A stretch of 64,000 nucleotides of DNA from Taiwanofungus camphoratus (Eukaryota > Basidiomycota > Agaricomycetes > Polyporales > Taiwanofungaceae). Below the pieces are notes generated by a model. It ran no database searches, was not told the DNA's origin, and was given only the letters and a program-made list of their open reading frames with translations. This document shows, piece after piece, positions 8,911 through 64,000 of the stretch. Both the position numbers and the translations under genes were made by a program. The stretch spans positions 868,001-932,000 of the forward strand of contig CP021229.1 in the NCBI GenBank assembly GCA_003999685.1. The letters run 5' to 3'. Position 1 is the first letter of the stretch, and each line of letters starts with the position of its first letter.

Positions 8911-9106
8911 AGGGCCTGACTATGATAGAAGGTAGCAAGGACTTAAGAACAATGCATTGTCCAAATAGCATGAAGTCGATAGACGTCAAGTGAGTACCTC
9001 AGGTATGAAGTGAGAGGTCACAAGATACAAGTATTGGATTGCTAGAATCCTAGTAACCAGATCAAACTTAAAATCCAACCTACAAAGTACAGGGCCTTAT
9101 ATATGT

Positions 9107-10837
9107 TGATATGACCTAGGGGACCCTGGTATCTAGGGAGTGCTCTGAAACGTGGCTAAGAGGTAGTGTGTGAACTATGGAGATGTGAGGGGAGGAGCTA
9201 CAACCTGTATGATACTGGGAAACTTGTATGTCTTATTTTTGTAAGCGAGGGAGTAAGGGGCCAAGGGTCCTGCGTGACAGGATCTTGTTTCTAGGTGCTA
9301 GACGATCCCTAAGGCCTTACGAGGCCCTTCAAAGTGCGCGAAGTCCTTTGAAGTTCTGCGAAGTCCTTCGAATTTTTAGCTAAAGCGCACGAGCTGACTT
9401 CGTAGGCTGTGTGGAGTTAGGGAGCAATAAGCCAATAGAATATAGCTTCAACTAATCGACAAAGGGTACGAGACTACTGCGAAGTCTTTAACTAGAGTTA
9501 GCTAAAGGGCATAATGCTTTGAAGCTTGTTAGAGCAAGGTGTGCGAGATTTGACTAGTGTAGAAGACCTGTAGAAAAGGTCGGATGGTTCAGGGAGTCAA
9601 TACTTGGAATAGGGATGGGAGGACGAGATCGCTGGAAGTGCCAAAGTGTCTGTTGACTTCGAGGTGTAGGTCGGGGAGTTCGAGGGCATAGGGGGATGTA
9701 CCATGACCTGAAATGAAGGCTATAGGAGAGTCGTAATGCTATTCGTGGGACATAGGGATGACGCAACGTGAGCCTTTGGATATAACTAAGGCAGAGGCCC
9801 ACCGGATGGGTGCTATAAGATGTACTGAAGAGTGCAAAGTCACATCGACTTTATGGATTGTGGTGTGCAGTTTGAGAGTGTAGATGTAGTTTAGAGATAC
9901 TGAGACGGAGCTAGGGTGGAGACTTAGGGGCTTAGGACCATTTCTAAGGTGGTACTCGTGGCACTTTTCTGAGATCGGAGCTACAGGGGAACTTGTATTC
10001 CAAAGGGAGAAGCATGCACTGAGGGGTCTCTCTTGTACATGGTAAACTACCTCTGACTAAATAGGGGAAAGTGAGGTGAACTATTCTTGTGCGAAGTGAT
10101 CCTTACAAGTCCAAAAAGTATACTAAAGTGCATGGGCTCTGAAGTGAACATGAGGAGGATAGGAACTAAATAGGAACTGAAATAGGGGAACTACGTATGG
10201 TAGAAAGGTGACCAAGTCCATCCATGCAGGCGGGATGACTATCTGAGAGCGGCCATACACCGTGATCAACTGTCTTAGTGGGCTAAGAGCATACAAAGTT
10301 TCTAGCAGCGGGACTTGGCCTAATTGGGGTAGAAGATGCCCTAAATGGGTGGAGGATCATATAGATGTACCATAGAAGGACCTTATGGCATAGGATCGAG
10401 ACCCAGGGGGTGCGCAAGGCTTCCTAAGTCCAGCCTTCAGAACTTCGGACCGCTTCAGAGCCTATCAGAGGTGCCTGCAGTCACAAGAGATTGGAGAGAC
10501 TTAACTAAGCCTTCTTAGCTAAACCCGGGATGAGTGACGTAGTAGCTGGGGCCTGAACCCAATAGAACAATGTGGGAGGGCTGGCAGTGTCCGATAGTGG
10601 ACTTAGCAGGAGTTAGGGACTTCGTGGCTAGCTTTCGAAACTTTGTAGCATCTTGTGTGACTTCGCGGGACTTCGTAGAGTGTTAGAAGGGTTTAGGAGG
10701 CAAAGGAGGTGTTAGGAACATCATAGGGACCTATCCCATCTGTCGTAGGCTGTAGAGGGGTCATAGGCTGGTCTGTGAGGGGATTAGAAAGCTCCTAAAA
10801 TCGCAATTCGGAGCCCAGGAGGCTACAGGACTCATCA
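9107..10837 (+). repeat. LTR-like repeat, family A copy 1 (1,731 bp)
   Basis: The unit runs from TGATATGACCTAGGGGACCC to CTACAGGACTCATCA. It lies inside family D: the intact D text is CCTTATATACGTGTTCTAC, and here ATGT precedes and ACGT follows the insert. That gives a 4-bp target duplication ACGT with one decayed base on the left. No ORF over 100 residues looks real. TG...CA ends and the lack of terminal inverted repeats beyond TGAT/ATCA favour a solo LTR. Confidence 0.75.
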
Positions 10838-11088
10838 ACGTATTCTACTCTGTGCATGGACCATGGCGTGTGATCTAAGAAGCAGCATAAGTACACATAA
10901 GTAAGGCGATATGAGTCATCAGGCTGTATTAGCAATACATATGTGTGAGACAGAATGTGTGAGTGGGGCCCAATATAAGTCAGTGTCCATGAGTAAGCGG
11001 GGCCCATACAGTAAGCAGCCATGAGTCAATGGACTGCGTAAAGAAGCTGGACCTACTCAAGGCCCATCTGATAAGTGAAAGGTCACGG

Positions 11089-13836
11089 TGATGCGCACTA
11101 TAACACTCCAACCCCAACTGGGTACGACCTAGAGAAGCTGGAAGGCTATAGAACTAGTTAGTGTGGAGGGGAGAGTCAGCAGCAAAGGGTTCCCGATCTC
11201 AAATGGGTCGAGAGACGTCTACGAAGGTCTTCGACGACCCTCTACGTGTGTCGCGACTGCTCGACGTAGCTTCGATGCGCTACTATGCTGTACTATACTA
11301 AGGAGAGGCTTAAACGTGAGAACTTAGCTGATATGCAGCCCTTCGAAATACTGTAGAAGGCGGACTTGGGTTAGAGAGAGATGCTAGCGCAACCCTTCGA
11401 TGTGACTTGAAGGCGGACGTAAGACTGAATGCAACTCTTCAACGGATGTTGAAGACGGACGAGACGCAACCCTTCAAGATACTGTAGAAGGCGGATAGTA
11501 GACGCAACTCTTCAAACGTAATCGAAGACGGAAGGACGCAGTAGAACGCAGTAGGAGACTGAATTGAAGGTGCTCTTCTTGAGCTCTGCAGGATGGGGAA
11601 GAACTTCTCTGTTGTTCCCAGACACCATACATCGCGTTTATACTACTGTACTATAATGTAAGGCGCATCGGGAGTGGCATAGTATGAGTGGCATCCTAAC
11701 TACTTGCGTACTATGAACTACGGAGTGGCATGAAATATACTAAGACAAGACCTGGGGCTATAGCGTTATCGAGTACATCGAGTGGTGCGTCGTAGCAGAT
11801 CGAGCGATATCGGAGTGGCGAGACCGGTGATGAGTCCCGTAGCCTCCTGGCCCCCGAATCGCGATTTTAGGAGCTTTCTAATCCCCCAACCGACCACTCT
11901 AAGACTCTCCTACAGCCTACGACAGGAGGGATAGGTTCCTATAATATTCCTAACGCCCCCTCTCCTTCCTAAACCCTCCTAACACCCTACGAAGTCTTGC
12001 GAAGTCACACGAGGTGCTACGAGATTTCGAATGCTAGACGCGAAGTCCCTAACTCCTGCTAAGTCCACTATCGGACACTGCCGGCCCTCCCATACTGTTC
12101 CATTGGATCTAGGTCCTATCTACTACGTCACTCATCCCGGGCTTAGCTAAGAAGTCTTAGCTAAGTCTCTCCTAGCTCTTGTGATTGCAGCTACCTCCGA
12201 TAGGCTCCGAAACGGTCCGAAGTTCCGGAAGTTGGACTTAGGAAGCCTTGTGCACCCCCATGGGTCTCGATCCTATGCCATAAGGTCATCCTAGGACGTA
12301 CCCATATGACCCTCCACCCATTTAGGACACCTCCTGCCCCGATTAGGCCAAGTCCCGCTGCTAAGGACTTCGTGCGCTCTTAGCCCACTAAGATAGGTGA
12401 TCACGGCGCATGGCTGCTCTCGGATAGTCATCCCGCCCTCGTGAATGAAGTTTGTCACCTTTCTACCGTTCGTAGTTCCCCTGTTTCAGTTCCTAATTAG
12501 TTCCTATCCCCCTCGTGTTCACTTCGGAGTCCATGCGTTTTAGTACACATTTCGGACTCGTAAGGATCGCTTCGCGCAAGATTAGTTCACCTCACGCTCT
12601 CCTATTTAGTCAGAGGTAGTTTACTATGTAAAAGAGAGACCCCTCAGTGTACGCTTCTCTCTTTGGAATACCAGTTCCCCTGTAGCTCCGATCTCAGGAA
12701 AGCGCCGCGAGTACAACCTTAGGAACGGTCCCAAGGTCCCTAAGTCTCCACCCCAGCTCCGTTTCAGTACCTTTGAACTACGTCTACGCTCGCAATATAT
12801 CTACGAACTACGTCTACGCTTCCCGAACTACGCACTACGATCTACGAAGTCGCCGTGACTTCGTGCCCTTCAGCACCTCTTATAGCACCTATCCGGTGGG
12901 CCTCCGCCTTAGTTATACCCTTAGGCTCACGTTGCGTCATCCCTACGTCCTACGAATAACCCTACGACTCCCCTATAGCCTTCATTACAGGCTATAGTAC
13001 GTCTCTCTACGCCCTCGAACTCTCCGACCCACACCTCGACGTCATCAGACACTTCAGAGCTTCCAGCAACCTCGTTCCCTCATTCCTATTCCAAGTATTA
13101 GCTCTCCGAACCATCCGACCTCTCCTACAAGTCTCCTACGCCAGCCAAACCTCGCCCACCTCGCTCTAACAAACCTCTAAGCCTTATACCCTTTAGCTAA
13201 CTCTAGCTAAAAGGACTTCGCAGCAGTCTCGTACCCTCTGCCGCTTAGTAGAAATTATAGTCCATTGGCTTATTGCTCCCTAACTCTATACAGCCTACGA
13301 AGTCAGCTCGCGTGATTTAGCTAAAACTTCGAAGGACTTCGCAAAACCTCGAAGAACTTCGCATACTTCGGAGGGCCTCGCAAGGCCTTAGGGATAGTAT
13401 AGCACTTAGGAACAAGATCCTGTTGTGCAGGACCCTTGACCCCTTACTCCCCTACTTACAAAAACAAGACATACAGGTTTCCCGGTATCATACAGGTTGT
13501 AGCTCCTACCCTCACACCCTCACAGTTATCACACTACCCCCAGCCACGTTGCGGAGCACTCCCTAGGTACCAGGGTCCCCTAGGTCGTATCACCGGTCAC
13601 GTGCGAGGACATTGAGTGGCAACTGCATGTGGCGTATTGTGCGTAGAGGGACCGGTACACCGGAACATCAGACCGGAACTGGCGGAGTGGCGGTGGCGTG
13701 ATTCGAGGCTATCAGAGAGTCCCGCGGTGGCTTTTCGGGCTGTATCGGACATGTCGAGTGGCGTCAAAGCCATGACTAAGGTCCTAGGGTCGAGTGAGGG
13801 CGCTCCACGGGGCCTAGAAGGGCCTGGCGCCTATCA
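11089..13836 (+). repeat. LTR-like repeat, family B copy 1 (about 979 bp without its insert)
   Basis: It starts TGATGCGCACTATAACACTC and ends GGGCCTGGCGCCTATCA. ACGG lies on both sides (11085-11088 and 13837-13840); the uninterrupted family D copy reads GGTCATGGGACTGATT at this spot. Inside are five tandem hairpin units (about 11337-11535). Repeat A2 is nested at 11828-13592. I see no coding sequence. Confidence 0.75.
11828..13592 (-). repeat. LTR-like repeat, family A copy 2, nested in B1
   Basis: On the plus strand it reads TGATGAGTCCCGTAGCC...CCTAGGTCGTATCA, 1,765 bp. CCGG precedes and follows it. The same place in copy B2 reads GAGACCGGTCACGTGCG without the insert, so CCGG is the target duplication. 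Short ORFs inside, such as 12773-12997, come from a degenerate CTACG/TACGA-rich stretch and are not genes. Confidence 0.8.
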
Positions 13837-13884
13837 ACGGGACTGATCCAAGGTCCGACCGATAAGAGAAAAGAAATTGTATCA

Positions 13885-14934: not shown

Positions 14935-15346
14935 TCTTTTCTCTCGTATCTTATTGGTCGGACCTCAAATCAATCCCATGACCTTTTGCTTCTAGGATGG
15001 GCCTCGGAAAGGCCCTGCTTACACATCCCGTCTTACGCTTACTGATTGCTAATACGGCCCGATAACTCATACTGCCTTATTTATGCTTACTCATGCTGCT
15101 TCTTAGATCACATGCCATGGTCCGTGCACAGAGTAGAATACGTATATAAGACCCTGTACTTTGTAGGTTGGACCTTAAGTTTGATCTGGTTACCAAGTAG
15201 CTAGTTATCACTAGCAATCTTATACTCGTATCTTGCGACCTCCCGCTTCGTACCTGAGTACTCACTCGACTCTTATTGACTTCGTCCGGGAGGACATACG
15301 CAGTGTCCTTAAGTCCTCGCTACTACTTCTAGTAGTCAGGCCCTCA
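14935..15346 (-). repeat. LTR-like repeat, family D copy 3 (inverted)
   Basis: On the plus strand it reads TGATACAATTTCTTTTCTCTC...GTAGTCAGGCCCTCA, the reverse complement of D copy 1. It is somewhat shorter, about 412 bp. The bases beyond its right end match, inverted, the bases to the left of D1, so more than the LTR-like unit is shared. Confidence 0.6.
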
Positions 15347-17924
15347 TGTTCGAGGCTTCACAGTCATTGATACCAGCTTGTATCAGGATAAGTTCCTACT
15401 CTCTGAGTCTAATGATGTCAAAGGAGATAAGATAGTGTTTTCAGAGTGGATATCAGCCACAAAGGATATCGACTCCTGAGCTCAGTAACAGAAGTTTGTG
15501 AAGTTACTACCTGACTATACAGTAGTTCAGGCTTCACTCTGGAGGACAAATGGATGCTCTCCATGTCTGACAATGCTTGTAGAGCCTCTCTGCCCAGTGT
15601 ATCCTCAGTATTTCAGCCATCAGAAGGTAAAAACTCAGCTGGCATAATTGGACTAGATGGCACAGAGTGCAATCTCAGCTGAGACCACAGGTTATACCAT
15701 CAAGAAGCCATCTGGAGCAGTTTCTTTTTAGCTTAGTGAATGAATAGGTTAAAGATGTTTTGGAAGTAGATGATGTTGTCAAGTCGGAGACTTGAGTTAA
15801 TCAGACCCAAGAGTAGCCAGATGTCAATGAGAGTTGTTCAAACAAGTCTTTGACAGTCAAAAATATGTGATAATCATGACCAAAAGTAGTCGATGTCAGC
15901 ACACAGTGAAGAACATTGCACACAAAAGTGACTGGTTTCAAGACCATTTTCAGTTCATATATATGCTACCAAAGGTTGGAAGAAAAAAAAAAGGGAAGTA
16001 TCAGCCAAACTGTCACATTTTCTTTTCTGACAGTTTGACAGACAGGTTTTTCCTAACCAACTTCCAGTTGCTGCAACCACCGAATTTTCTAATGGATCTG
16101 TGACCCATCTTGCTGAACAGAGGGTGGTGAGAGAGCAGCAGAAGTAACTGATCAGTTATCAAGATCAATATCTGTAGTCTTTTGTATATTATGTGTATTA
16201 ACCATACTCTCTAGCTTGAGGGTATCAATCAGCATTATTTGTCTCACACTAATGCTTGAAAGAATCTGGATTTTCTGGCATCCACAATCTCAATGATATG
16301 TTATTGCAAATTGTAATAGGCGCAATTCTTGCACGGATTCTGAATCAGCAGAACAAGTCATGCAAAACATGACAGCCGGTATGATATCAGACAAGTTTGT
16401 AAACTTGTGAAATATTTCCGTCAAACACAATTTGAAATAACAGTTGGGACATGTTCCAATGCTATGTAAGATATGCCTGTCTCATCCTCGACTACATCAC
16501 GTGACCATTGTCTGTCACGCTTACAGCAATTTGGCAGATAGAAATATGAAAAAATCTATAGGCTAAAGACATAGCACATAACTCAAAATTCTGCGACCAT
16601 CAAACTGTGCGGAAATGACCTCTCTACAGTTTGATGGTGGCCGATTTTTTATTAAAAGCCTTCTTAGATAGTTATAAGACCATCTTGTATGGAACTGAAC
16701 ATACTTGCTTAGATAAGCAACATGATACAATCATTTAGTTTGAAGGTAGTGTTCGAGCAACTGCATTAATTATGTTAATATTCAGTACCTATTGTGTAAC
16801 TAATGTCTTGACAAACACTTGTCCGGCTGTTACACCTGATGGTCACACTGTGATGATAGTAGTCGAAAATGAGATGGGCATATCTTATGTAAAGCAACAA
16901 TTGGATTGATTCCTTCAATTGCGTCAAAGCACCACAGGCTCTCAGCCACTTAATCAAATACATAGGTGGTTCCAAAGTTTGCACCTGTTGCATTGAATTT
17001 ATCAATTGCCATATCATTATATAGCTATGTGAACTTTTCCGGGTTCTAGTGATGGGACAGCTGGTTCCGAGACTACCAGTTTTCCTGATGTAGTGATTCT
17101 GCAACAACATGCACTTTCCCATTGTTGTCAGACACTACAACGGCCTGATACGCCGGACCTGTCAGGAGCGGAACGGCACTATTTTGTCATAGCACGACCT
17201 TCAAGTCTTCGCGCTCGTTCCACGTTGCATGATATCAAACAGTTCCTCTGTCAAAATGCAGTCAAAACAACCAAGTGAAGATCACATCACCTCGGAACTC
17301 TTCTCCACATACGAGTGTTTACTTCCAAACTCTCAAGCCACTAATACCCCAGCCAACCATTGTCTCAGCGTCCGCTACGCATTCATTGGTGCGAAAGCAT
17401 GTAGAGGTTGCTAGACAGCAGTAGATTTCCATATCAACTTCTCGACTTCTCCGAATCGAAGCCGTCTTGCCTCAATCACCTATTTACCCTACACGTTCGC
17501 GTCTTGTCATACAGGAAGAGAGATGGTAATGGTCTCCAAATCCTCGAGCAACCATTGTCTCCTTGCCAGCTGCTGCGGGTCTGTTTATCATGTCATGTCT
17601 TTGCACTCGGCGCGAAAATGAACACAAATTGACCATTCGGCATTTCAAGCCTGAGCAAAGGAGGCAAAGTTCCACGTTCCTGCCATCAATATTCAGACGT
17701 TGTGTTCGGGAGCAGATCTGACAGCGTGGGCACCGAAGCTCTGTCGAACCGCTCAGCTGAAGCCAGCGAGCGGGACATTTCCAGTAAGTGCTAACCACTG
17801 CGGATGAAACGCGTGGTCGTACTGTTCTGAATGTCATATAACGGCACGTCGCCCATACGTTTGCCTCTCCTCCGCTCACTCGCCCGACACGCTCAGCTAC
17901 ATAAATCCTGAATAACCGAGGAGT
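15347..17924. other. Repeat-derived then unassigned sequence, no gene called
   Basis: The first part (15347-16110) shows long open stretches on the plus strand and shares text with 2097-2205, so it is transposon-derived of unassigned family. From about 16110 to 17924 the base composition shifts towards that of the gene island. I find only short unsupported frames there (for example minus 17122-16775 and 18080-17484) without family resemblance or matching splice sites. The last bases are presumably the promoter of the DUF6533 gene. Confidence 0.4.
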
Positions 17925-39326: not shown

Positions 39327-39336
39327 TGACATCTCA

Positions 39337-39362: not shown

Positions 39363-39556
39363 ATTCAATTATCCTCCTTCAAGCAACTATATGCTTATGG
39401 TGGAGTCTAGCCAAATCCATACAAACAACCGGATTTTCACTAATTTCAATCATGCAATGCCACTTTTCGCCCCAACTCCTTCTAACGTTTGCCCAAACGG
39501 TTGCTACCCTCGGCCCGTGCCGTCGAAGGGTAACGGTTACTGAGATATGGTCTCAG

Positions 39557-42213
39557 TGATGCACACTATAACACTCCAACCCCAACTGGGTACGACCTAG
39601 AGAAGCTGGAAGGCTATAGAACTAGTTAGTGTGGAGGGGAGAGTCAGCAGCAAAGGGTTCCTGATCTCAAATGGGTCGAGAGACATCTACGAAGGTCTTT
39701 GATGACCTTCAACGTGTGTCGCAACTGCTCGACGTAGCTTCGATGCGCTACTATGCTGTACTATACTAAGGAGAGGCTTAAACGTGAGAACTTAGCTGAT
39801 ATGCAGCCCTTCGAAATACTGTAGAAGGCGGACTTGGGTTAGAGAGAGATGCTAGCGCAACCCTTCGATGTGACTCGAAGGTGGACGTAAGACTGAACGC
39901 AACTCTTCGACGGATGTCGAAGACGGACGAGACGCAACCCTTCAAGATACTGTAGAAGGTGGATAGTAGACGCAACTCTTCAAACGTAATTGAAGACGGA
40001 AGGACGCAGTAGAACACAGTAGGAGACTGAATCGAAGGTGCTCTTCTTGAGCTCTGCAGGATGGGGGAGAACTTCTCTGTTATTCTCAGACACCATACAT
40101 CGTGTTTATACTACTGTACTATAATGTAAGGCGCATCGGGAGTGGCATAGTACGAGTGGCATCCTAACTACTTGCGTACTACGAACTACGGAGTGGCATG
40201 AAATATACTAAGACAAGACCTGGGGCCGTAGCGTTATCGAGTACATCGAGTGGCGCGTTGATACGACCTAGGGGACCCTGGGTACCTAGGGAGTGCTCCG
40301 CAACATGGCTGTGGAGTAGTGTGATAACTGTGGGGATGTGAGGTAGGAGCTACAACCTGTATGATACCGGGAAACCTGTGTGTCTTGTTTTTGTAAGTGG
40401 GGGAGTAAGGGGTCAAGGGTCCTGCACAACAGGATCTTGTTCCTAAGTGCTATACGATCCCTAAGGCCTGGCGAGGCCCTCCGAAGTACACGAAGTTCTT
40501 CGAGATTCTGCGAAGTCCTTCGAAGTTTTAGCTAAATCGCACAAGCTGACTTCGTAGGTTGTATGGAGTTAGGGAGCAATAAGCCAATGGACTATAGTTT
40601 CTACTAAGCGGCAGAGGGTACGAGACTGCTGCAAAGTCCTTTTAGCTAGAGTTAGCTAAAGGGCGTAAGGCTTAGAGGCTTGTTAGAGCGAGGTGGGCGA
40701 GGTTTGGCTAGCGTAGGAGACCTGTAGGAGAGGTCAGAGAGTTTGAGGGTGTAGGGAGATGTACTATAGCCTGAAATTAAGGCTATGGGAGAGTTGTAGG
40801 GCTATTCGTAGGACGTAGGGATGATGCAACGTGAGCCTAAGGGTATAACTAAGGTGGAGGCCCACCGGGTAGATGCTATATGAGGTGCTGAAAGGTGCGA
40901 AGTCACGGCGACTTCATAGATCGTAGTGCGTAGTTCGGGAAGCGTAGACGTGGTTCGTAGATATATCGCGAGCGTAGACATAGTTCAAAGGTACTGGAAC
41001 AGAGCTGGGGTGGAGACTTAGGGGCCTTAGGACCGTTCCTAAGGTTGTACTCGCGACACTTTCCTGAGATCGGAGCTACAGGGCAACTTGTATACCAAAG
41101 AGAGAAGCGTGCACTGAGGGGTCCCTCTCGTACATAGTAAACTACCTCTGACTAAATAGGGGAGCATGAGGTGAACTATTCTTGCACGAAATGATCCTTA
41201 CGAGTCCAAAATGTGTACTAAAGTGCATGGGCTCCGAAGTGAACACGAGGAGGATAGGAACTAAATAGGAACTGAAACAGGGGAACTACGTATGGTAGAA
41301 AGGTGACCAAGTTCATTCACGAGGGCGGGATGACTATCTGAGAGCAGCCATGCACCGTGATCAACTATCTTAGTGGGCTAAGAGCGTACGAAGTTCTTAG
41401 CAGTGGGACTTGGCCTAATCGGGGTAGGAGGTGTCCTAACTGGGTGGAGAACCATATGGATACGCCTTAGGATGACCTTATGGCATAGGATCGAGACCCA
41501 TGGGGTGTGCAAGGCTTCCTAAGTCCAGCTTCTGGAACTTCGGACCATTTCGGAGCCTATTGGAGGTAGCTGCAATCACAAGAGCTAGGAGAGACTTAGC
41601 TAAGACTTCTTAGCTAAGCCTGGGATGAGTGACGTAGTAGGTAGGACCTAGATCCAATAGAACAGTATGGGAGGGCCAGCAGTGTCCGATAGTGGACTTA
41701 GCAGGAGTTAGGGACTTTGTGGCTAGCATTCAAAACCTCATAGCACCTCGTGTGACTTCGCAAGACTTCGTAGGGTGTTAGAAGGGTTTAGAAAGGAAAG
41801 GAGGCGTTAGGAATATTATAGGAACCTATCCCTCCTGTTGTAGGCTGTAGAAGCATCTTAGAGTGGTTGGTTGGGAGATTAGAAAGCTCCTAAAATCGCG
41901 ATTCGGGGCCCAGGAGGCTATGGGACTCATCAGCGTTGTAGCAGATCGAGCGATATCGGAGTGGCGAGACCGGTCACGTGCGAGGACATTGAGTGGCAAC
42001 TGCGTGTGGCGTATTGTGTGTAGAGGGAACAGTACACCGGAACATCAGACCGGAACTGGCGGAGTGGTGGTGGCGTGATTCGAAGCCATCAGAGAGTCCC
42101 ACGGTGGCTTTTCAGGCTGTATTGGATGTGTCGAGTGGCGTCGAAGGTATGACTAAGGTCCTAGGGTCGAGTGAGGGCACTCTGCAGGGTCTAGAAGGGC
42201 CTGGTGCCTATCA
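39557..42213 (+). repeat. LTR-like repeat, family B copy 2 (979 bp without its insert)
   Basis: It starts TGATGCACACTATAACACTC and ends GGCCTGGTGCCTATCA. TCAG precedes and TCGG follows, which fits a TCGG target with CpG decay on the left. Its own length equals that of B1 (979 bp) once A3 is removed. Five hairpin units lie at about 39803-40003. It interrupts family F copy 1. Confidence 0.78.
40259..41932 (+). repeat. LTR-like repeat, family A copy 3, nested in B2
   Basis: It reads TGATACGACCTAGGGGACCC...CTATGGGACTCATCA, 1,674 bp. GCGT lies on both sides (40255-40258 and 41933-41936). The uninterrupted B1 copy reads GTGGTGCGTCGTAGCAG here. This is the best-preserved plus-orientation A copy. 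Confidence 0.82.
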
Positions 42214-42235
42214 TCGGCCCATGCCGTTTGAAGAT

Positions 42236-42494: not shown

Positions 42495-44504
42495 TGACAT
42501 CTCAGTATGTGTGTGTGTGTGTGTGTATTCAATTATCCTCCTTCAAGCAACTATATGCTTATGGTGGAGTCTAGCCAAATCCATACAAACAACGGGATTT
42601 CAACTAATTTCAATCATGCAATGCCACTTTTTCACCCCAACTCCTTCTAACATTTGCTCAAACGGTGATGAGTCCCATAGCCTCCTGGGCCCCGAATCAC
42701 GATTTTAGGAGCTTTCTAATCCCCCAACTGACCATCCTATGACTTTTCTACAGCCTACGACAGGTGGGATAGGTTCCTATAATATTCCTAATGCCTCCTT
42801 TCCTTTCTAAACCCTTCTAATACCCTACGAAGTCCTGCGAAGTCACATGAGGTGCTACGAGGTTTTGAACGCTAGCCACGAAGTCCCTAACTCCTGCTAA
42901 GTCCACTATCGGATACTGCCGGCCCTCCCATACTGTTCTATTGGATCTAGGTCCCAGCTACTACATCACTCATCCCAGGCTTAGCTAAGAAGTCTTAGCT
43001 AAGTCTCTCCTAGCTCTTGTGATTGCAGCTACCTCCAACAGGCTCCGAAACGGTCTGAAGTTTCAGAGGCTGGACTTAGGAAGTCTTGTGCACCCATGGG
43101 TCTTGATCCTATGCCATAAGGTCCTCCTATGGCGCATCCATATGATCCTCCACCCATTTAGAACACCTCCTACCCTGATTAGGCCAAGTCCCACTGCTAA
43201 AAACTTCGTACGCTCTTAGCCCACTAAGATAGTTGATCACGGCGCATGGCTGCTCTCGGATAGTCATCCCACCCTTGTGAATGAACTTGGTCACCTTTCT
43301 ACCATACGTAGTTCCCCTGTTTCAGTTTCTATTTAGTTCCTATTCTCCTCATGTTCACTTCGGAGCCCATGTGCTATAGTACACATTTTGGACTCATAAG
43401 GATCACTTCGTGCAAGAATAGTTCACCTCATGCTCCCCTATTTAGTCAGAGGTAGTTTACTATGTACAGGGAGACCCCTCAGTGCATGCTTCTCCCTTTG
43501 GAATACAAGTTCCCCTGTAGGTCCGATCTCAGAGGAGTGCCGCAAGTACAACCTTAGGAACGGTCCTAAGCCCCTAAGTCTCCACCCCAGCTCTGTTTCA
43601 GTATCTTTGAACTACGTCTACGCTTGCAATATATCTACGAACCCCATCTACGCTTCCCAAACTACGCACTACGATCCACGAAGTTGCCGTGACTTCGCAC
43701 TCTTCAGCACCTCTTATAGCATCTATCCGGTGGGCCTCCACCTTGATTATACCCTTAGACTCATGTTGTGTCATCCCTACGTCCTACGAATAGCCCTACA
43801 ACTCTCCCATAGCCTTTATCTCAGGCTATAGTACATCTTCCTACGCCCTCGAACTCTCTGACCTACGCCTCGAAGTCATCAGACACTTCGGAGCTTCCGG
43901 CAACCTCGTTCTCCCATTCCTATTCCAAGTATTAGCTCTCCAAACCATCCGACCTCTCCTACAGATCTCCTACACTAGCCAAACCTCGCCCACCTCGTTC
44001 TAACAAACCTCTAAGCCTTACACCCTTTAGCTAACTCTAGCTAAAGACTTCGCAGCAGTCTCGTATCCTCTGCTGCTTAGTTGAAACTATAGTCTATTGG
44101 CTTATTGCTCCCTAAACCCCATACAGCCTACAAAGTCAGCTCGTGCGCTTTAGCTAAAACTTCAAAGGACTTTGCAAAACTTCGAAGGACTTCGCACACT
44201 TTGGAGGGCCTCGCAAGGCCTTAGGGATTTTATAGCACTTAGGAACAAGATCCTGTCATGCAGGACCCTTGGCCCCTTACTCCCCCACTTACAAAAACAA
44301 GACATACAGGTTTCCCGGTATCATACAGGTTGTAGCTCGTCCCCTCACATCTCCACAGTTCACACACTACCCCTTTGCCATGTTGCGGAGCACTCCCTAG
44401 GTACCAGGGTCCCCTAGGTTGTATCAACGGTTGCTACCCTTGGCCTGTGCCATAAAAGGGTAACAGTTACTGAGATATGGTCTCAGCCCATGCCGTTTGA
44501 AGAT
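42495..44504 (+). repeat. Family F direct repeat, copy 2 (interrupted by A4)
   Basis: It is read as 42495-42665 plus 44431-44504 and matches copy 1 from TGACATCTCAG through GCCGTTTGAAGAT. Repeat A4 is inserted in the text AAACGGTTGCTACCC, duplicating ACGG. Confidence 0.65.
42666..44426 (-). repeat. LTR-like repeat, family A copy 4, nested in family F
   Basis: It reads TGATGAGTCCCATAGCC...CTAGGTTGTATCA on the plus strand, 1,761 bp, with ACGG on both sides (42662-42665 and 44427-44430). The empty site is visible in family F copy 1 at about 39494-39505 (CCAAACGGTTGC). The open frame at 43430-43831 lies in the CTACG-rich part of the repeat and is not a gene. Confidence 0.82.
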
Positions 44505-44812: not shown

Positions 44813-46025
44813 GCAAAAGTCCTTCAGTTTTCAGTTTTTGATCCTTGATCCTTGATCCTTCAGTTCTGGCTCTCGGTCCCTCGGTTCAGAGTCCCGGCCT
44901 CTTGTTCATGACATTCATATGATCCCTTGATATTGCCTAGACCCCCTATGCATCGGCTTGATGGTTCAGCACTCCTAGGTCCCTGTTCCTCTCAAGGTCT
45001 GGTTAGATAGCCCATCTTCCATATGATGATCTCTAGATAAGCATCCCTCACCCTGTGCCATTCCCCAGTAACCTTTCTACTGCATTCAGTGTCCCTGTTT
45101 CATGTCCTACTTCAGTTTAGTTCCCCATATGGTACACTGATCAGATCCTAGATTTTACGATTTTCAGTTTCTTTTCAGTTTCTTTGGTTTTATTTTGTGT
45201 AAGATACTTTGACACCATGGACCCCTTATGTAGTCTCCTGTACCTACCAGATGGCAGAGAAGATATGTGCTCTTGTCTTGTCTTGCAGAATCTACAGACT
45301 TGTCCCCCCAGAGTTCAGATTTGGGCTTCCCCTGCTCTAAGGCTTTCCTACAGTCTGACAAGGTTCCCCTCCATCGTATCTACGCCTATCATCAGCCAGC
45401 AGTCCTATTATATTGTATATCACAGCAGTTCTATGTCTTCTACATCCTACATTCCTGAAGTTGGAGTAACTTCAGTCTGAGTAACCAGTCCCCCTCCTCC
45501 TCCTCATCCAGCGTCCCTCCACCCTCATTATACCCCATAGGCATGTGTTGTGTACAGTCCAGTCTATCAGTCATCACCTACACCAGCCCTACGTCCCATT
45601 CCTACGCCATCAGCCCTCAGCAGTATCCCCTATCCCGATTACATCAGTTTTCGGTTTATCTTTCAGTTCTCGGCTTACCATCAGTGCACCCTCAGTTCCT
45701 TCAACTCCTTTGCACCTGGCTGGCATTTGACCAGCCCGCTGCCACCGGATTAGAAGACCACACTCCTACCTCCCTGGGACTGTCTGCACCTCGGCATAAG
45801 ATCCTGTCGTGCAGGATTCATTGGCCCCTTACTCCTTTGCACACACTAGACTTTTAGGTCTCTGACTGTGGTCTAGGTAGTTTCTCTGTTGTGTCCTCTC
45901 ACTTACCTTTCCCTCTGGTATCCTTCACAGGTACCACACCGCTTTAGCTCTCTCTACTCATTGGGACATGTCGGACCTACTCCCTAGGTTCATCCCCACC
46001 ATTCAGGACTCCCTAGGTCGTATCA
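44813..46025 (-). repeat. LTR-like repeat, family C copy 3
   Basis: This is the reverse orientation of the 62733 copy. It ends ACTCCCTAGGTCGTATCA at 46025 and is followed by TCGG. The left border is approximate because the match fades near 44813. It contains the conserved TCCTGTCGTGCAGGA block at about 45802-45816. Confidence 0.65.
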
Positions 46026-46455: not shown

Positions 46456-48865
46456 TGATACGCACTATAACACTCCAACCCCTAACTGGGTACGACCTAG
46501 AGAAGCTGGAAGGCTATAGAACTGTTAGTGTGCAGGGGAGAGTCAGCAGCAAAGGGTTCCCAATCTCAAATGGGTCGAGAGACGTCTACGAAGGTCTTTA
46601 ATGATCTACGACATGTGTTGCGATGATGAGTCCTGTAGTCTCCTATCACAATTTTAGGAGCTTTCTAATCCTCTAACAGACCATCCTATGACTCTTCTAC
46701 AGCCTACGACAGGTGGGATAGGTTCCTATAATGTTCCTAACACCTTCTTTGCTTCCTAAACCCTTCTAACATCCTACGAAGTCCTGCGAAGTTGCACGAG
46801 GTGCTACGAGGTTTCGAACACTAGCCACGAAGTCCCTAACTCCTGCTAAGTCCACTATCGGACACTGCCAGCCCTCCCATATTGTTCTATTGGATCTAGG
46901 CCCCAGCTACTATGTCACTCATCCCAGGTTTAGCTAAGAAGTCTTAGCTAAGTCTCTCCTAGCTCTTGTGACTGCAGGCACCTCTGATAGGCTCCGAAGC
47001 AGTCCGAAGTTCTGAAGGCTGGACTTAGGAAGCCTTGCGCACCCCCTGGGTCTCGATCCTATGCCATAAGGTCCTTCTATGGTGCATCCATATGATCCTC
47101 CACCCATTCAGGACACCTCTTACCCCGATTAGGCCAAGTCCCGCTGCTAGAAACTTTGTACGCTCTTAGCCCACTAAGATAGTTGATCACGGTGCATGGC
47201 TGCTCTCGGATAGTCATCCTGCCCTCATAGATGGACTTGGTCACATTTCTATTGTATGTAGTTCCCCTGTTTCAGTTCCTATTTAGTTTCTACCCTCCTC
47301 GTGTTCACTTTGGAGCCCATGCGCTTTAGTACACATTTCAGACTCGTAAGGATCACTTCGCACAAGAATAGTTCACCTCACTCTCCCCTATTTAGTCAGA
47401 GGTAGTTTACTATGTACAAGAGAGACCCCTCAGTGCACACTTCTTCCTTTTGGAATACAAGTTCCCCTGTAGCTCCAATCTCAGAAAAGTGCTGCGAGTA
47501 CCACCTTAGGAACGGTCCTAAGCCTCTAAAGTCTCCACCCCAGCTCCATTTTAGTATCTTTGAACTACATCTACGATCGCGATATATCTACGAACTATGT
47601 CTACGCTCCTTGAACTACGCACTACGATCCACGAAGTCGCCGTAACTTTGCACTCTTCAGCACATCTTATAGCACCTATCCAGTGGGCCTCCACCTTAGT
47701 TATATCCAAAGGCTCACATTGTGTCATCCCTACGTCCTACAAATAGCACTACAACTCTCCTATAGCCTTCATTTTAGGTCATAGTACATCCCCCTACACC
47801 CTCAAACTCCCCAACCTACAGGTCTCCTACGCTAGTCAAATCTTGTACACCTTGCTCTAACAAGCTTTGAAGCATTATGCCCTTTAGCTAACTCTAGTTA
47901 AAGACTTCACAGCAGTCTTGTACCCTTTGCCGATTAGTTGAAGCTATATTCTATTTGACTTATTGCTCCCTAACTCCACACAGCCTACGAAGTCAGCTTG
48001 TGTGCTTTAGCTAAAACTTCAAAGGACTTTGCAGAACTTCAAAGGACTTCGTGCACTTCAGAGGGCCTTGCAAGGCCTTAGGGATCATCTAGCACCTAGG
48101 AACAAGATCCTGTCATGCAGGACCCTTGGCCCCTTACTCCCTCACTTACAAAAAACAAGACATACAGGTTTCCCGGTATTATACAGGTTGTAGCTCCTCT
48201 CCTCACATCCCCACAGTTCACACACTGCCTCTTAGCCACGTTACAGAGCACTCCCTAGGTACCAGGGTCCCCTAGGTCGTATCAGCGGTAGAAGACTGTA
48301 TTGAAGGTGCTCTTCTTGAGCTCTGCAGAATGGAGGAAAACTTCTCTGTTGGTCCGAGATGTCGTACATCACATTTATACTACTTTACTATAATGTAGGA
48401 CACATTGGGAGTGGCGTAGTATGAGTGGCATCCTAACTACTTGTGTACTATGAACTATGGAGTGGCTTGTAGATGAAGTGGCTACCGTACTTGATATCAC
48501 TAGAAAGGCTGGAACAAAGGAATGCACATGAGATATACGAAGACAAAACCTGTGGCCATAGCGTTATCAAGTGCATCAAGTGGCGTGTCGTAGCAGATCG
48601 AGCGATATCGGAGTGGCGAAACCGGTCATGTGCGAGGACCTTGAGTGGCGACTGCGTGTGGTGCATTGTGTGTAGAGAGAACTGCGCACCAGAACATCGG
48701 ACTGGAATTGGTGGAGTGGCTGTGGTGTGATTTGAAGCTATCGGAGAGTCCCACAGTGGCTTTTTTGGCGGTAATGGATGCGTCGAGTGGCATCAAAGCC
48801 ATGACTAAGGTCCTAGGGTCGAGTGAGAGCACTCCATGGGGCCTAGAAGGGCCCAGCGCCTATCA
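46456..48865 (+). repeat. LTR-like repeat, family B copy 3 (partial), in the hAT relic
   Basis: It starts TGATACGCACTATAACACTC and ends GGGCCCAGCGCCTATCA. ACAT precedes and ACGT follows, consistent with an ACGT target. It is shorter than B1 and B2 and holds repeat A5. Confidence 0.7.
46624..48284 (-). repeat. LTR-like repeat, family A copy 5, within B3
   Basis: It reads TGATGAGTCCTGTAGTC...CTAGGTCGTATCA, 1,661 bp. The flanks are GCGA and GCGG, which are similar but not identical, so I do not count it as a clean target duplication. Confidence 0.75.
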
Positions 48866-57044: not shown

Positions 57045-57800
57045 TCACTTCAACTGTCAGACTGGTACTGGTTCACAAAATGGACAACTTGATGAAAGAG
57101 CACTTCGTGTATATGTACATCGTAGCAATTTATGTAGCTGATGGCAGATATGTATACCACCTATATCGTCATAGAAATTCCTTGTGCAGCAAAAGTACCA
57201 GGTGGTGATTTACTGACAATTTTTATTCAGTAAGCTATGCATTCTTATTTGTGTAGCAAGAAATCTATATCGACGAAAGTAGCTAGTAAACTAAGCATAG
57301 CAAGATCTTTAAAGTATCGATAAAAATTATCGCTCTAAGCAGAGGATAAGTAAAGTATGGCTTGATCACCTCGCCCTCACAAGTGGCCAATATAAGTTTC
57401 CGCGAAGACGTCAGCACTCTCAGGGTGAGAAAGAGGAAGTGGTGGACATGTGGGAGGCATACAGTTCAAAGCACAGGAAAGTAATACGATAGTAAATACG
57501 GGCCTGGGTACGAAAATAATGAAAGAAACATTATCAGGTCAAACATTTATAGAATAAGTCGCGACAGGATCGAACGGCACATCTTAAGAAACGAAATATG
57601 CAATGATCGGACCCCCTTGCGACAGATGCGGCCGGGTGGGTGATTTCAAAGGTCAAATCTGTACGGTAGGCACGAGAGAACCGGGGATGGGTGACTGCGT
57701 GGCTCCCCATCATTGACCGATCAGAGCCGATGAAGTAGGCTGAGTCGACATACCATTACCAGGGAAAACGCCAAATGACAAGAGTGCTCCGCACGGGCAC
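57045..57800. other. Intergenic spacer between convergent genes
   Basis: The 3' regions of the reductase (+) and the third C2H2 gene (-) face each other across about 750 bp. No ORF or repeat is recognised. Confidence 0.4.
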
Positions 57801-58681
57801 TCACGCTTCGCGGGCGCGGCAGGAACCCTTGAGGTGGCGGCGGAGCGAATCCAGTCGCCCAAACTTGCGAGCGCAGTTTGGGCACCGCGCCTGAGTGCTC
57901 CGCAGATGGACAGAGGCGATATGCTTGCCATAGCTAGCGAAGAACATCTTTCGCTTGTATGGCACACTGCCGGGCTCGCCAGGGCACCATTCGCACCCAC
58001 CACGGTGCCTGTCATCCCAGGTTGCTTCATCGAAGTGGTATTCCTTCAGATGGCGCGTGATTCCTGACGGAGTCGTATCGTGTATAGCAACGGTGCACGA
58101 TGTGCCCCACTGGCACTGGACGCCTCCGACATCGAGCTCTGGTTGAGCCTGTTTGGCAACCAGAGGAATGCCTCCACCTGAAAGACTCTCAGACTCATAC
58201 GTCTGAGGACGATCCATTTCAAGAAAGGGATTAGCCGCGAACGGGTGCAGGTCACGGTTACCAACGTGGGTAATGGCATCCAGAGTTGCAAAGTCAGAAG
58301 GACCAGGAAGCATGAAACGAGGATCCCTTCTACTTCAAGCAACTCAATCTGACTGAAAGGGCCAGCAGCACAGCGACGGATCACATACCCATCGTAAGTC
58401 GCATCCGCCGCGCTTATCCCGTAGTAGTCCATAGTGTGGTGGCCGTAAGCGCGATGCACGAACGATGCACTGCTAGTACGGAGGTGGTCTTGGCTCTCGT
58501 GTCTCTGGTCATCACAATAGTTCTGGCAGGTCGTGGGATCTCGATCAGAAGCGACATCGTCGTGCCATAGCAAATCCGCGTTCATATCATGCGGTGAAGT
58601 AACGTGAGTCTCAGCTGGTACGAGAGGCTCGAGGGGGATGACCGTGTTAAGGTTAAATCGCCGTGAAGGGACAGATGACAT
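57801..58681 (-). CDS. Three-finger C2H2 protein, paralogue 3
   Basis: Two exons on the minus strand, 58681-58389 and 58332-57801, with a 56-nt intron (GTATGT...AAG). They give 825 nt, 274 residues. Exon 1 is polar with many His, Asp and Ser. The finger part matches paralogues 1 and 2: CQWGTSC...HLKEYH (about residue 170), CEWCPGEPGSVPYKRK...HIASVH and CPNCARKFGRLDSLRRH. HIASVHL is identical to paralogue 1. A GTGAGT after SCRARE could start a last intron, so the C-terminal residues may differ. It lies 25 kb from the other two, beyond the second repeat block. Likely nuclear regulator, target unknown. Confidence 0.75.
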
Positions 58682-58743
58682 CGCTGAGTTATAGCTTTCG
58701 AACAGGGAGGTAAACCACTGGTTAATCTTTGGCTAATGGCTGC

Positions 58744-58749
58744 TATATA
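58744..58749 (-). promoter_or_regulatory. TATA box of the third C2H2 paralogue
   Basis: On the minus strand GGAATATATAGCAG lies about 65 bp before the ATG at 58681. It parallels the CTATATA boxes of the other paralogues. Confidence 0.4.
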
Positions 58750-58750
58750 T

Positions 58751-59409
58751 TCCACGAAATGTCCGCATCACGCCAATATTGCCGAGAATAGAGGCCTTCT
58801 TCAAAGGCATAATCGTCATGATCACTGAGGTGAATTAGTAGGAAAGGAAGTCGATCAGGAGGAGGGTCGGGTACTGCTGTGGCCCGTAAGTACAAGACGC
58901 CTGACAATCAGAATGAACTTGAATGCAAGCTGTAGCCGGTCAGGACCCCGGATAACATCTATAAGACGCTTAACAACCATATTTGGTTCTCTCAAAGGTT
59001 CAAAACAAAACCAGCATCAAGTAAGGAGTATCGGTCAGACTGGCCAGCCACGGCCCCTGGTCGTCCTGAGAGAGGAGCCTAGGGAGCGGCCACCTATCGA
59101 TGTCGGGGACAAGCAACAAGCCTTCCGGACCGTGCAGCGTCAATGTCCGGACAATTCAACAAGCTACTTTTTAGACTTGGAGGTCCATTTGTCCAAATTT
59201 TGAAGTCCTCAAAGGTCGGGTTCATGTCCGGACTACTGACGATCTTCCTACAGGGAGTATCGAGGGGTCCTAGTCGGTCGTGCTTGTTTGCCTTAGTATC
59301 ATCAATCATCAGGCCTCCTTTCACTTGTTGCTGGTCATGGGTCCTGTAAGCACGGACCGTTATCGATAGCTATGACATGGCTCGCGGCAGATAAGTATAG
59401 TTAGTATGC
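58751..59409. other. Spacer without a recognised gene
   Basis: Promoter-side sequence of the third C2H2 gene, then about 500 bp with only short frames (58913-59203 plus, 59324-59094 minus). None shows family resemblance. Confidence 0.35.
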
Positions 59410-59965
59410 GGGACACACTTGTCGGAGATACACCGCCCCGAAGGTGACGTCCATGATCCCGTGGGTGTGCTCGACGACCGGGCCTGATCAACAGTTCCGT
59501 TCAGGTGGACCTGGCTGCAATGTCACGTTCAATTTCGCGCGGTCGGAGTTCAAGTTCTTTTCCTAAGCTGAAGTATCCCTTCAAGTTGTAACCATCTTCG
59601 CACATGTGCTTGTTGACAAGGTAATGTTTCTCAATTTTCGCGCCGAGCGCCTGTATCCCATCGAACTGAATTCGCCGTCCCATGTCACAACAGGCCATGA
59701 CTAAGGTCCATGTCAGCTCGGGGTGTCACGCGTCACATGCAGCGGTCGGACTAGTGCAGTACCTTCTATTGTTTCGCGGATCTCAGCTTGATCCTTGAGA
59801 TATTGAGACGTTGTGGTAAGTCTGTACTACGCATAAGTGGCTCGACGGAACGGGTCCGACGGCTCTTACCCTGTTTCTTCTCGTGATGACAAAAGGAACT
59901 ACGGCATTGGTCGATTCTCGTCTCCGCCACATCGTGAACGCTCACAGCCACTTCGCCAAAGCCTT
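59410..59965 (-). CDS. Unrecognised multi-exon gene or gene remnant
   Basis: On the minus strand three open pieces with plausible splice sites follow one another. EVAVSVHDVAETRIDQCRSS ends HEKKQ before GTAAGA (about 59870). DQAEIRETIE lies before GTACTG (about 59765). A longer piece encodes CDMGRRIQFDGIQALGAKIE and KGYFSLGKELELRP (59698-59501), possibly followed by VVEHTHGIMDVTFGAVYLRQ. Codon use and amino-acid order look protein-like, but I cannot name a family and the ends are not defined. It may be a truncated gene. Confidence 0.3.
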
Positions 59966-60127
59966 ATGCAGCCAGTTTCCTTGTCACAGGTGCTAATCAG
60001 AAGAGTTATCACCTCCGGCCATTATTATGCAGTCGATGATCTACGTCGCCTCTTCTGTCACCTCAGATGCTTCATCCGCGGTCTCGCCATCCACAACACA
60101 CCGGTGACGCTCTGTAAAAAAGCGTAG

Positions 60128-60628: not shown

Positions 60629-60981
60629 TGATATGAACTACAACACTCCAACCCCTACTGGGTATGATCTATAGAAGCTGAATGGCTGTAGAACTGTTAG
60701 TGTGCAAGGGGGAGAGTCAGCAGCAAAGGGTTCTCAACTCAAATTGATCGAGAGACGTTTATGAAGGTTTTTGATGACCTACAATGTGTGTTGTGACTGC
60801 TCAATGTAGCTTTGATATGCTACTATGTGGTACTATACTAGGGGAGGAACTGAACGTGAGGACTTATCTGAGATGCAACCCTTTGACGGATGTGAAAGGC
60901 AGGCTTGGGTTAGAGACAAAATACCATTGCAACCCTTTGGTATGACTTGAAGGTGGACGTAAAACTGGAATGCTATATACT
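60629..60981 (+). repeat. LTR-like repeat, family B copy 4 (first third only)
   Basis: It begins TGATATGAACTACAACACTC and follows the B1 text through the start of the hairpin array, with many C-to-T and G-to-A differences. It then gives way to a family A repeat. It is the most decayed B copy in the window. Confidence 0.6.
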
Positions 60982-61792
60982 GATACAATCTAGAGGACCC
61001 TGTGACTTAGGGAGTGCTCTGAAATGTGGCTAAGAAGTAGTAGAGTGAACTATAGAGGTGTGAGAATGGGAGCCACAACCTGTACAGTATCGAGAGACCT
61101 ATATGTCTTGTTTTTTTCAGAGCGAGAGAGTAAGGGGTCAAGGGTCTTGCATGACAGAATCTTGCTCCTATGTGCTAGATGATCCTGAAGACCTTGCGAG
61201 GTCCTCTGAAGTGTGCAAAGTCCTTCGAAGATCTGCAAAGTCCTTCGAAGTTTTGGCTAAAACACGTTATCTGACTTTGTAGGTTGCTAAGAGTTAGGAG
61301 ACAATGGGTCAATGAAATAAAGGTCCAGGTAGATGACAAATGATGCTAGACTTCTCTGAAGTCTTTAGCTAAAGTTAGCTAAGAAGGTCAACACTTTGAA
61401 GTTTGTAAAGCAAAGTATGAGAGATTGAACTGACATGGGGACCTATAGAAGAGGTCAGATAGTTTGTGGAGCATATACTGGGAGTTTGTAGGGGGAGAAC
61501 AAGGTCACTGAATGCTCCGAAGTATCTGCTAGTTTTGAGGCATAGGTTGGGGAGTTCGAGAGCATAGTGGGTGTGATATAATCTGAATTGAAGGCTATAG
61601 GAGGATCACAGTGATATTGTAGGGCATAGAGATGACGCAACATGAGCCTTTGGGTATAACTAAGGCAGAGGCCTACTGGATAGGTGCTATAGGGTATACT
61701 GATGGATGTGAAGTCACATTGACTTCACAGATTGTAGTGCGCAGTTCAAGGGGTGTAGACATAGTTTGTAGGTATATCGTGAGTGTAGACAT
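60982..61792 (+). repeat. LTR-like repeat, family A copy 7 (partial)
   Basis: It begins TGATACAATCTAGAGGACCC and follows the A unit for about 810 bp, where A8 is inserted. The junction base context is GTAGACAT; intact copies read GTAGACGT in the same place, so the target was ACGT. Confidence 0.65.
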
Positions 61793-62732
61793 TGATGTGA
61801 CCTAGAGGACCCTGGTACCTAGAGAGTGCTCCAAAACATGGCTAAAAAGCAGTGGGGTGAACTGTGAGGATGTGAGAAGAGGAGCCACAACCTGTACGGT
61901 ATCGGGAAACCTATATGTCTTGTTTTTGTGAGTGAGTGAGTAAGGGGTCAAGGGTCTTGCATGACAGGATCTTGCTCCTATGTGCTAGATGATCCCAAAG
62001 ACCTTGTGAGGTCCTTCAAAGTGTGCAAAGTCCTTTGAAAATCTGCAAAGTCCTTTAAAGTTTTGGCTAAGTTGTGCTATCTGACTTCATAGGATGCGTA
62101 GAGTTAGGGAGCAATAGGTCAATGAAATAGGGGTTCAAATAGTTGGCGAATGATACTAGACTGCTCCAAAGTCTTTAACTAAAGTTAGCTAAAAAGGTCA
62201 ATGCTTCAAGGTTTGTAGAACGAGGTATGAGAGATTTGACTAGTGTGGGGATCTATAGAAGAGGTCAGATGGTTTGTGAAGTCTATACTGGGAGTAGGGA
62301 TGGGAGAACAAGATCGCTGAATGTTCTGAAGTATCTGTTAGCTTCGAGGTATAGGTTGGGGAGTTCGAGGGTGTAGAAAATGTGATATAATCTGAATTGG
62401 AGGTTATAGGAGGATTGCAGTGATATTGTGGGAACGTAGAGATGATGCAATGTGAGCCTTTGAGTATAACTAAGGCGGAGGCCCACCAGATAGGTGCTAT
62501 AGCTTGTACTGAAGGGTGTGAAGTCATGTCGACTTTGTGGATCGTAGTGCGTAGTTTGAGGGGCATAGGTGTAGTTTGTAGATATATTGTGAGTGTAAAT
62601 GTAGTTTAGAGACACTGAAATGGAGCTAGGGTGGAAACTTTAGGGGCTTAGGACCATTCCTAAGACTGCACTCGTGGCACTCTCTGAGATTTGAGCTACA
62701 GGAGAACTTGTATTTCTGAAGGGGGAAAGCAT
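61793..62732 (+). repeat. LTR-like repeat, family A copy 8 (partial)
   Basis: It begins TGATGTGACCTAGAGGACCC and follows the A unit for about 940 bp. Family C copy 4 is inserted at AAGCAT, where other A copies read AAGCGTGCACTGAG, so that target was GCGT. Confidence 0.65.
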
Positions 62733-64000
62733 TGATACGACCTAGGGAGTTCTGAACGGAGGGATGAACCTAGGGAGTAGGTCCGACACGTCCTAATGAG
62801 TAGGGAGAGCTAAAGCAGTGTGGTACCTGTGAGGGATATCAGAGGAAAAGGTGAGTGAGTGGACATGACAGAAAAACTACCTAGACCACAGTCAGGGACC
62901 TAAAAGTCTAGTGTGTGCAAAGGAGTAAGGGGCCAATGAATCCTGCACAACAGGATCTTGTGCTGAGGTGTGGACAGTCCCAGGGAGGTAGGAATGTGGT
63001 TTTCTAATCCAATGACAGTGGGCTGGTAGGATGCTGGCCAGATGCAAAGAAGTCGAAGAAAACTGAAGGCAAACCAATGGTAAACCAAGGACCGAAGGAT
63101 AAACCGAAAACTGATGTAATTGGGAGAGGGGATACTGCTGAGGGCTGCTGGCATAAAAATGGGATGTAGAGCTGGTGTAGGCAATAACTGATAGGCTGAA
63201 CTGTACACAACACGTGCCTATGGAGTATAACGAGGGCAGAGGTATGCCAGATGAGAAGGAGGAGGAGGGCTGGTTACTCAGACCGAAGTTACTCCAACTT
63301 CAGGAACATAGGACATAGAGGACATAGGACTGCTGCAATATATGATACAATATGATGGCTGGCTGATGATAGGTGTAGATACAATGGAGGGGAACCTTGT
63401 CAGACTGTAGGGAAGCCTTAGAGCAGGGGAAGCCCAAATCTGAACTCTGGGGGACAAGTCTGTAGATTCTTTGAGACAAGATGGGAGCACATATCTTCTC
63501 TGCTGTCTGGTAGGTACAGAAGACTACATAAGGGGTCCGTGGTGTCAAAGTATCTTACGCAAAATAAAACCGAAGAAACCAAAAACAAACTGAAAATCGT
63601 AAAATCTAGGGTCCAATCCATGTACCATATGGGGAACTAAACTGAAGTAGGACATGAAACAGGGACACTGAATGCAGTAGAAAGGTTACTGGGGAATGGC
63701 ACAGGGTGAGGGATGCTTATCTAGAGATCATCATATGGAAGATGGGCTATCTAACCAGACCTTGAGAGGAACAGGGACCTAGGAGTGCTGAACCGTCAAG
63801 CCAATGCATAGGGGGTCTAGGCAATATCAAGAGATCATATGGACATCATGAACAAGAGGCTGGGACTCCGGACTGAGGGACTGAGAACCAGAACCGAGGA
63901 TCAAAGACCAAAAACCGAAGTGCCTTTTCTTGGTTGATCACAACCAAAGACCCAGACTCATCAGAGGTCAGGAGGATGCTAGGGGAGGCTGCTGGCATGC
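62733..64000 (+). repeat. LTR-like repeat, family C copy 4 (runs off the window)
   Basis: It begins TGATACGACCTAGGGAGTTC and continues for at least 1,268 bp to the window end. It is the best copy of the family. Its first 15 bases equal those of family A (TGATACGACCTAGGG), and the conserved TCCTGCACAACAGGA block is at about 62940-62954, so A and C are related. Confidence 0.7.

Follow-up and report, generated by a model that had tools for sequence, protein, structure and literature searches.

Integration of a Ty3/Gypsy retrotransposon group of Taiwanofungus camphoratus into 4-bp targets centred on CpG

The window analyzed here, a stretch of 64,000 nucleotides of the Taiwanofungus camphoratus genome (C10:868001-932000; the genome has 33,194,378 bases in 15 contigs), carries nested copies of three repeat families, A, B and C, recognised by comparison of the window with itself. 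A first-pass annotation had proposed from ten junctions that the three families insert in 4-bp targets centred on CG, and had attributed this to a single integrase or transposase. The present analysis shows that these repeats are long terminal repeats (LTRs), mostly solo, of Ty3/Gypsy retrotransposons, and that this group integrates in a near-obligate CpG-centred manner that is seen well beyond the window.

The genome search with A revealed four pairs of A copies spaced about 10.63 kb, whose members differ at 0, 1, 0 and 4 of 1764 sites. These paired LTRs, as found in Ty3/Gypsy elements, start with TG and finish with CA. The interior of one pair holds three open reading frames (ORFs) on the same strand, of 999, 724 and 559 amino acids in that order, with Pfam matches to aspartyl protease, RNase H and Integrase_H2C2 (1.4e-15 for the latter). 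No Pfam match to reverse transcriptase was obtained at E<=0.01 in the interior ORFs of this copy; the order protease, reverse transcriptase, RNase H, integrase would hold in A with the reverse transcriptase placed by its position. Since LTR pairs enclose ORFs for protease, RNase H and integrase, A is the 1.77-kb LTR of a 12.4-kb Ty3/Gypsy element, and the presence of gag-pol between the LTRs rules out a DNA transposon or a miniature inverted-repeat transposable element. In the sense of the transcript, the A LTR reads TGATGAGTCCC...GTATCA; the primer binding site TTTC-TGGAGCCCACCGCGAG follows the 5′ LTR and the polypurine tract GGGAGGAGG precedes the 3′ LTR. The sequence GGGCTCCA-GAAA, on the primer binding site side, is common to the interior edges of A, B and C copies (a single copy for C). 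All three families have the TGAT...ATCA ends reported by the first-pass annotation. Identical flanks and empty siblings fix the target duplication at 4 bp and rule out one of 5 bp.

The targets were tallied genome-wide, a check named beforehand by the first-pass annotation, on the top-scoring copies of each search (for A, B and C, 40 candidates were scored out of 540, 296 and 231 first-look candidates, respectively; the 40 scored for A gave 43 matches). The 40 A copies include A2 of the window. This gave 142 flank rows, from both sides of 40 A copies, from 30 B copies (10 on both sides, 20 on one) and from one side of 23 C copies; the unmatched 3′ end of one B copy (L075) lies outside these rows. 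Twenty rows were removed as element interior (15 for A, four for B and one for C). Among the 122 kept, 97 have CG at their centre, 23 have TG or CA and two have neither, so that 120 carry a CG or its decayed form. The A flanks (n = 65) comprise 60 CG, 3 TG and 2 CA, those of B (n = 35) 26 CG, 4 TG, 3 CA and 2 others, and those of C (n = 22) 11 CG, 6 TG and 5 CA. Elsewhere in the A flanks, each of the 12 remaining dinucleotide positions has CG in only 0 to 7 of 65 rows (a short 3′ flank, L072, was omitted from this position table). Counted per copy, CG is found on at least one flank in 39/40 A, 23/27 B and 11/22 C. Among the 25 A copies with two usable flanks, 20 have identical 4-bp flanks, four have flanks one CpG transition apart and one differs otherwise (ACGT/ACGC); the outer flanks also match in the four A proviruses. 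For 26 A insertions, local composition predicts 1.5 CG centres, whereas each of the 26 carries CG on one flank or both (three of them on one only), i.e., a log10 P of about -34 that is indicative, as flanks are partly non-independent. A additionally favours C or A ahead of the CG (position -4, 53/65) and G or T behind it (position -1, 56/65), giving CCGG, CCGT/ACGG and ACGT; CCGG is the commonest A target, found in nine of 20 solo copies, one of which is CTGG/CCGG.

The control was a Gypsy family of this genome that carries a chromodomain (1667-amino-acid frame; chromodomain E 2.4e-13). Like A, it is an LTR retrotransposon with a retroviral-type integrase match, but it has a chromodomain, its LTRs are of the TGTTAC...GTAACA type, and CG occupies positions 2-3 in only 4 of 21 flanks, or 4 of 18 once three poorly aligned rows are set aside (one LTR flank). 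The difference from A is supported by Fisher tests (3e-10, or 1e-8 without these rows). Two further arrangements were seen beside other retroelements: a stretch taken for the LTR of a family with a 1403-amino-acid integrase contains an additional A LTR, which is cut at the TGATACG end and has the flank ACGC at the other, and a 401-amino-acid frame (L082:1665-2870) starts where a chromovirus LTR has its 3′ end.

In the window, 25 element edges picked by eye Table 1 give 15 NCGN, nine NTGN or NCAN and one other target, so that 24 agree with the genome-wide rule. The ten junctions listed by the first-pass annotation can be read as it stated, some only with the help of a sibling. Empty siblings give 4-bp duplications for A1, A2, A3 and A4. 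The place targeted by A8 reads ACGT in A2 and ACAT in A3, and that of C4 reads GCGT in A3 and GCAT in A1. The two flanks of A5 match places of B that lie roughly 290 bp from each other, which would suggest recombination between two A insertions within a single B, with loss of the intervening part, or a deletion. Further unclassified repeats lie beside A1 and C2 (window 381-1020 and 8277-8910; 2225-2742 and 15010-15385).

Table 1. Copies of families A, B and C in the window, with their flanks (window positions).
Element	Description	Position	Strand	Flanks (left / right) and empty siblings
A1	A-family LTR (TGATATGACC...ACTCATCA)	9107..10837	+	ATGT / ACGT; empty sibling near 15140 (minus strand) ACGT
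A2	young A-family LTR inside B1	11828..13592	-	CCGG / CCGG; empty sites in B2, B3
A3	A-family LTR inside B2	40259..41932	+	GCGT / GCGT; empty sites in B1, B3
A4	A-family LTR	42666..44426	-	ACGG / ACGG; empty sibling near 39500 ACGG
A5	A-family LTR inside B3	46624..48284	-	GCGA / GCGG, unlike, each fitting NCGN
A6	A LTR 5′ fragment cut by C2	6601..6713	+	flank ACAG
A7	A LTR fragment interrupted by A8	60981..61792	+	left flank ATAC, non-fitting
A8	A LTR inside A7, interrupted by C4	61793..62732	+	flank ACAT
B1	B-family LTR interrupted by A2	11089..13836	+	ACGG / ACGG
B2	B-family LTR interrupted by A3	39557..42213	+	TCAG / TCGG; empty sibling near 44480 TCAG
B3	B-family LTR interrupted by A5	46456..48865	+	ACAT / ACGT
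B4	B-family 5′ fragment	60629..60980	+	flank ATGA
C1	C-family LTR fragment	5853..6600	+	flank ATGT
C2	C-family LTR, 1563 bp	6714..8276	-	CTGG / CCGT, mismatched; sibling near 381 CCGT
C3	C-family LTR, left end undefined	44854..46025	-	right flank TCGG
C4	C-family LTR inside A8, runs off the window	62733..64000	+	left flank GCAT

The TG and CA flanks look like decayed CpGs rather than like a choice of target, as the first-pass annotation had proposed. All five differences (5/5) between the paired LTRs of the four proviruses oppose a CpG to a TpG or a CpA. TG/CA never stands on both sides of any of the 25 A copies with two flanks, four of which combine CG on one side with TG/CA on the other. The share of TG/CA increases from A (5/65) to B (7/35) and C (11/22), the same order as that of identity to the query copies (98-100%, 93-96% and 86-90%, respectively), which indicates only a rough order of age since the copies used as queries for B and C have undergone decay too. 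Furthermore, four old A copies of the window hold 41-64 CpGs and two young ones 100-101, and five matches to DNA methyltransferase domains are encoded in the genome. Along the window, the CpG observed/expected ratio is 0.78-1.10 at 16000-40000 and 50000-60000 and 0.06-0.90 in the retroelement blocks, with fairly sharp borders.

The search with the A integrase gave 78 scored matches (of 377 candidates) in the genome, 59 at 86-100% identity and 19 at 66-73%; the 1284-amino-acid frame is open, with no stop within the match, in 26 of the 78. The relation of the 19 more distant integrases to B LTRs was examined for four of them: one (C11:477238-478791) sits between two B LTRs and three are about 2.3 kb from a B LTR. 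Therefore, the sequences indicate that B carries an integrase of its own, related to but separate from that of A; an integrase of C was not found. Thus, the part of the first-pass proposal that invoked an integrase holds, but not its uniqueness, as there are at least two. Inspection of the A integrase by eye shows D228, D286 and E321, as well as a GPY/F-like stretch at 467. Its best relative of solved structure is the integrase of prototype foamy virus (PFV; E 1.6e-16, compared to 0.0011 for Ty3). Neither a chromodomain nor another reader domain was detected in it at E<=0.1, a search in which the control family gave its chromodomain; A thus lacks the integrase C-terminal chromodomain that characterizes chromoviruses. 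It also contains no [YF]P[YF][YF], i.e., no YPYY motif. Downstream of the integrase, where a third ORF (env) would be expected in an errantivirus of the ZAM group, the one interior that was read has just two frames on the pol strand, of 127 and 159 amino acids. In an A provirus, the part from the integrase gene to the 3′ LTR holds two frames of 178 and 197 amino acids (L068:432-968 and 1032-1625, plus strand) that run antisense to gag-pol and have no Pfam match above the cut-off. Another putative A provirus (C13:754500-768664; L107-L110, L035) has the outer flanks ACGA / GTGG and an A LTR (L035) inside its own interior, an arrangement that would result from recombination plus self-nesting.

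Altogether, we consider it highly probable that A, B and C are LTRs of one Ty3/Gypsy group whose integrase cuts with a 4-bp stagger and requires a CpG at the exact centre of its target. The likeliest mechanism would be a direct reading of the central CpG by the PFV-like integrase, the requirement being built into the intasome. CpG is a pyrimidine-purine step, and the intasome, like that of PFV, would have to unstack such a step at the target centre; a reading of bases would be added to a PFV-type geometry, so that CG would be accepted but not TA, CA or TG. PFV is described as cutting with a 4-bp stagger, favouring a pyrimidine-purine centre at which the target DNA is unstacked, and contacting target bases by Ala188 and Arg329 of its integrase (PMC4422553). 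In our reading of the alignment, the A integrase also has an alanine where PFV has Ala188. PFV therefore resembles A in its integrase, its stagger and its pyrimidine-purine centre; however, retroviral target preferences are described as weak, whereas CG is near-obligate in A and B.

Precedents are known outside fungi. ZAM, a Ty3/Gypsy errantivirus of Drosophila, is reported to have the target CGCGCg, which is bound by its integrase (PMC2527525); a review gives CGCG for its subgroup, and a 4-bp duplication is described in 3/3 ZAM insertions (PMC2527525, PMC3276498, PMC5408687). ZAM thus shares with A, B and C a Gypsy integrase, a CG-containing target and a 4-bp duplication, but its described target is longer and GC-rich, whereas theirs is near-fixed at the central CG only. 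Furthermore, LTR ends of the ZAM subgroup are described as AGT/AnT-type, compared to TGAT...ATCA here, so that our elements lack the AGT...AnT ends of this errantivirus group. Ginger1 DNA transposons, reported to generate duplications of CCGG (75%) or CCGT/ACGG (24%) (PMC2836005), also have a Gypsy-like integrase, and CCGG is their commonest target as well as that of A. However, they are described as cut-and-paste elements with inverted repeats and a YPYY motif, whereas A has LTRs, RNase H, gag-protease and no YPYY. The target range of A, B and C overlaps that of Ginger1 but is wider (NCGN, including ACGT, GCGG, ACGA and others). Other accounts describe palindromic, clade-specific and generally AT-rich motifs for Drosophila Gypsy clades (PMC3276498), variable 5-bp duplications for TCN3, a Gypsy element of Cryptococcus (PMC12810828), and no target preference in a Culex survey (PMC3286476). 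The first-pass statement that no named fungal element is known to behave in this way agrees with our searches of the open-licence literature, which listed no fungal element with such a CG-centred target by title or abstract opening; ZAM and Ginger1 are precedents from outside fungi.

It is also conceivable, although unlikely, that methylated CpG is what the integrase, or a factor attached to it, recognises, so that insertion tracks 5-methylcytosine and steers copies into silent DNA. The DNA methyltransferase domains mentioned above and the CpG decay of the copies, which suggests that they are methylated, agree with this, as does the finding of a match to any of six retroelement sequences within 600 bp of 16 of the 26 A insertions. 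For Heterobasidion parviporum, a review names CG as the context with the most methylation (PMC7862722), which would bear on this reading only for a host of that genus. However, the 10 other insertions have no such match, and the flanks of eight of these have CpG observed/expected ratios of 0.86-1.19 (0.59 and 0.64/0.14 for the other two), compared to 0.91-1.10 at seven other genomic loci. The sites of these eight insertions have thus probably not been methylated for long, and therefore long-standing methylation is probably not required, although sequence cannot reveal recent methylation. Moreover, the integrase has no detected reader domain, and a tether would not be expected to pin the cut to one base. 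The fixed phase of the CG or TG/CA centres in the kept flanks fits reading by the intasome better than tethering. The preference for CpG-rich repeats that the first-pass annotation had envisaged is not supported by these match-free insertions or by the local CpG content of the 26, which ranges from 0.5 to 8.4% of dinucleotides (mean 5.6%). A need for CpG-rich target DNA is ruled out by this range and by the C10 provirus, inserted in CCGT with 3 other CpGs and 117 CA/TG steps within 600 bp.

That flexibility alone matters, any pyrimidine-purine step being accepted and CG dominating through composition, appears very improbable. CG, CA and TG are all pyrimidine-purine steps, as preferred by PFV according to the cited description (PMC4422553), and TA at A7 and CA at the empty sibling of B2 would fit. 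However, CA and TG together outnumber CG at all 24 two-sided A sites (61-117 versus 3-50 per 598 dinucleotides), and among the 25 A copies with two flanks none has them on both. Finally, although the sampled copies are in principle a filtered set, we give almost no credence to a less specific insertion followed by the selective removal of copies outside CG sites, since proviruses with 0-4 LTR differences obey the same rule and selection would hardly single out one dinucleotide at an exact phase in repetitive and other DNA alike.

Several observations nevertheless weigh against a strict requirement of the integrase for a central CpG. The left flank of A7 (ATAC, at 60981), an edge that the first-pass annotation does not mention, is preceded by a short run of TATATA and agrees neither with NCGN nor with decay from it; this edge is possibly a rearranged junction. 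At B2, the empty sibling has TCAG and the CG rests on the right flank only. Two B flanks, L076 and L077, fit neither CG nor decay; L077 is purine-rich like a polypurine tract and is perhaps interior, and L076 is unexplained. Half of the C flanks are TG/CA, so that the case of C rests on the decay argument. The control family, which weakens the view that CG targeting is a property of the whole genome, nonetheless exceeds the local CpG rate of 5.6% (binomial 0.027 for 4/21 and 0.016 for 4/18); therefore, a weak CG bias may extend beyond the A/B/C group. It should also be emphasized that sampling was confined to the best-scoring copies, which are partly non-independent (provirus pairs; a likely duplication, L133/L137), and that the case is built on sequence.

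More speculatively, CpG, and possibly whether it is methylated, could be read directly by the integrase as part of a self-limiting cycle, an extension that we regard as doubtful. Fresh CpG-bearing copies would be good targets for nesting; methylation would then erode their CpGs and duplications, and old copies would become immune to new insertions.

Insertion that is so nearly always at CG is uncommon among elements of this kind and offers a simple system for studying how an integrase reads its target. It concerns a Gypsy group outside errantiviruses and without chromodomain, whose specificity would be compact, i.e., two bases at one position, with a central CpG that is near-absolute in A and B, and in C when decay is allowed for. 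Furthermore, because their targets decay by CpG mutation, these insertions may each keep a record of methylation.

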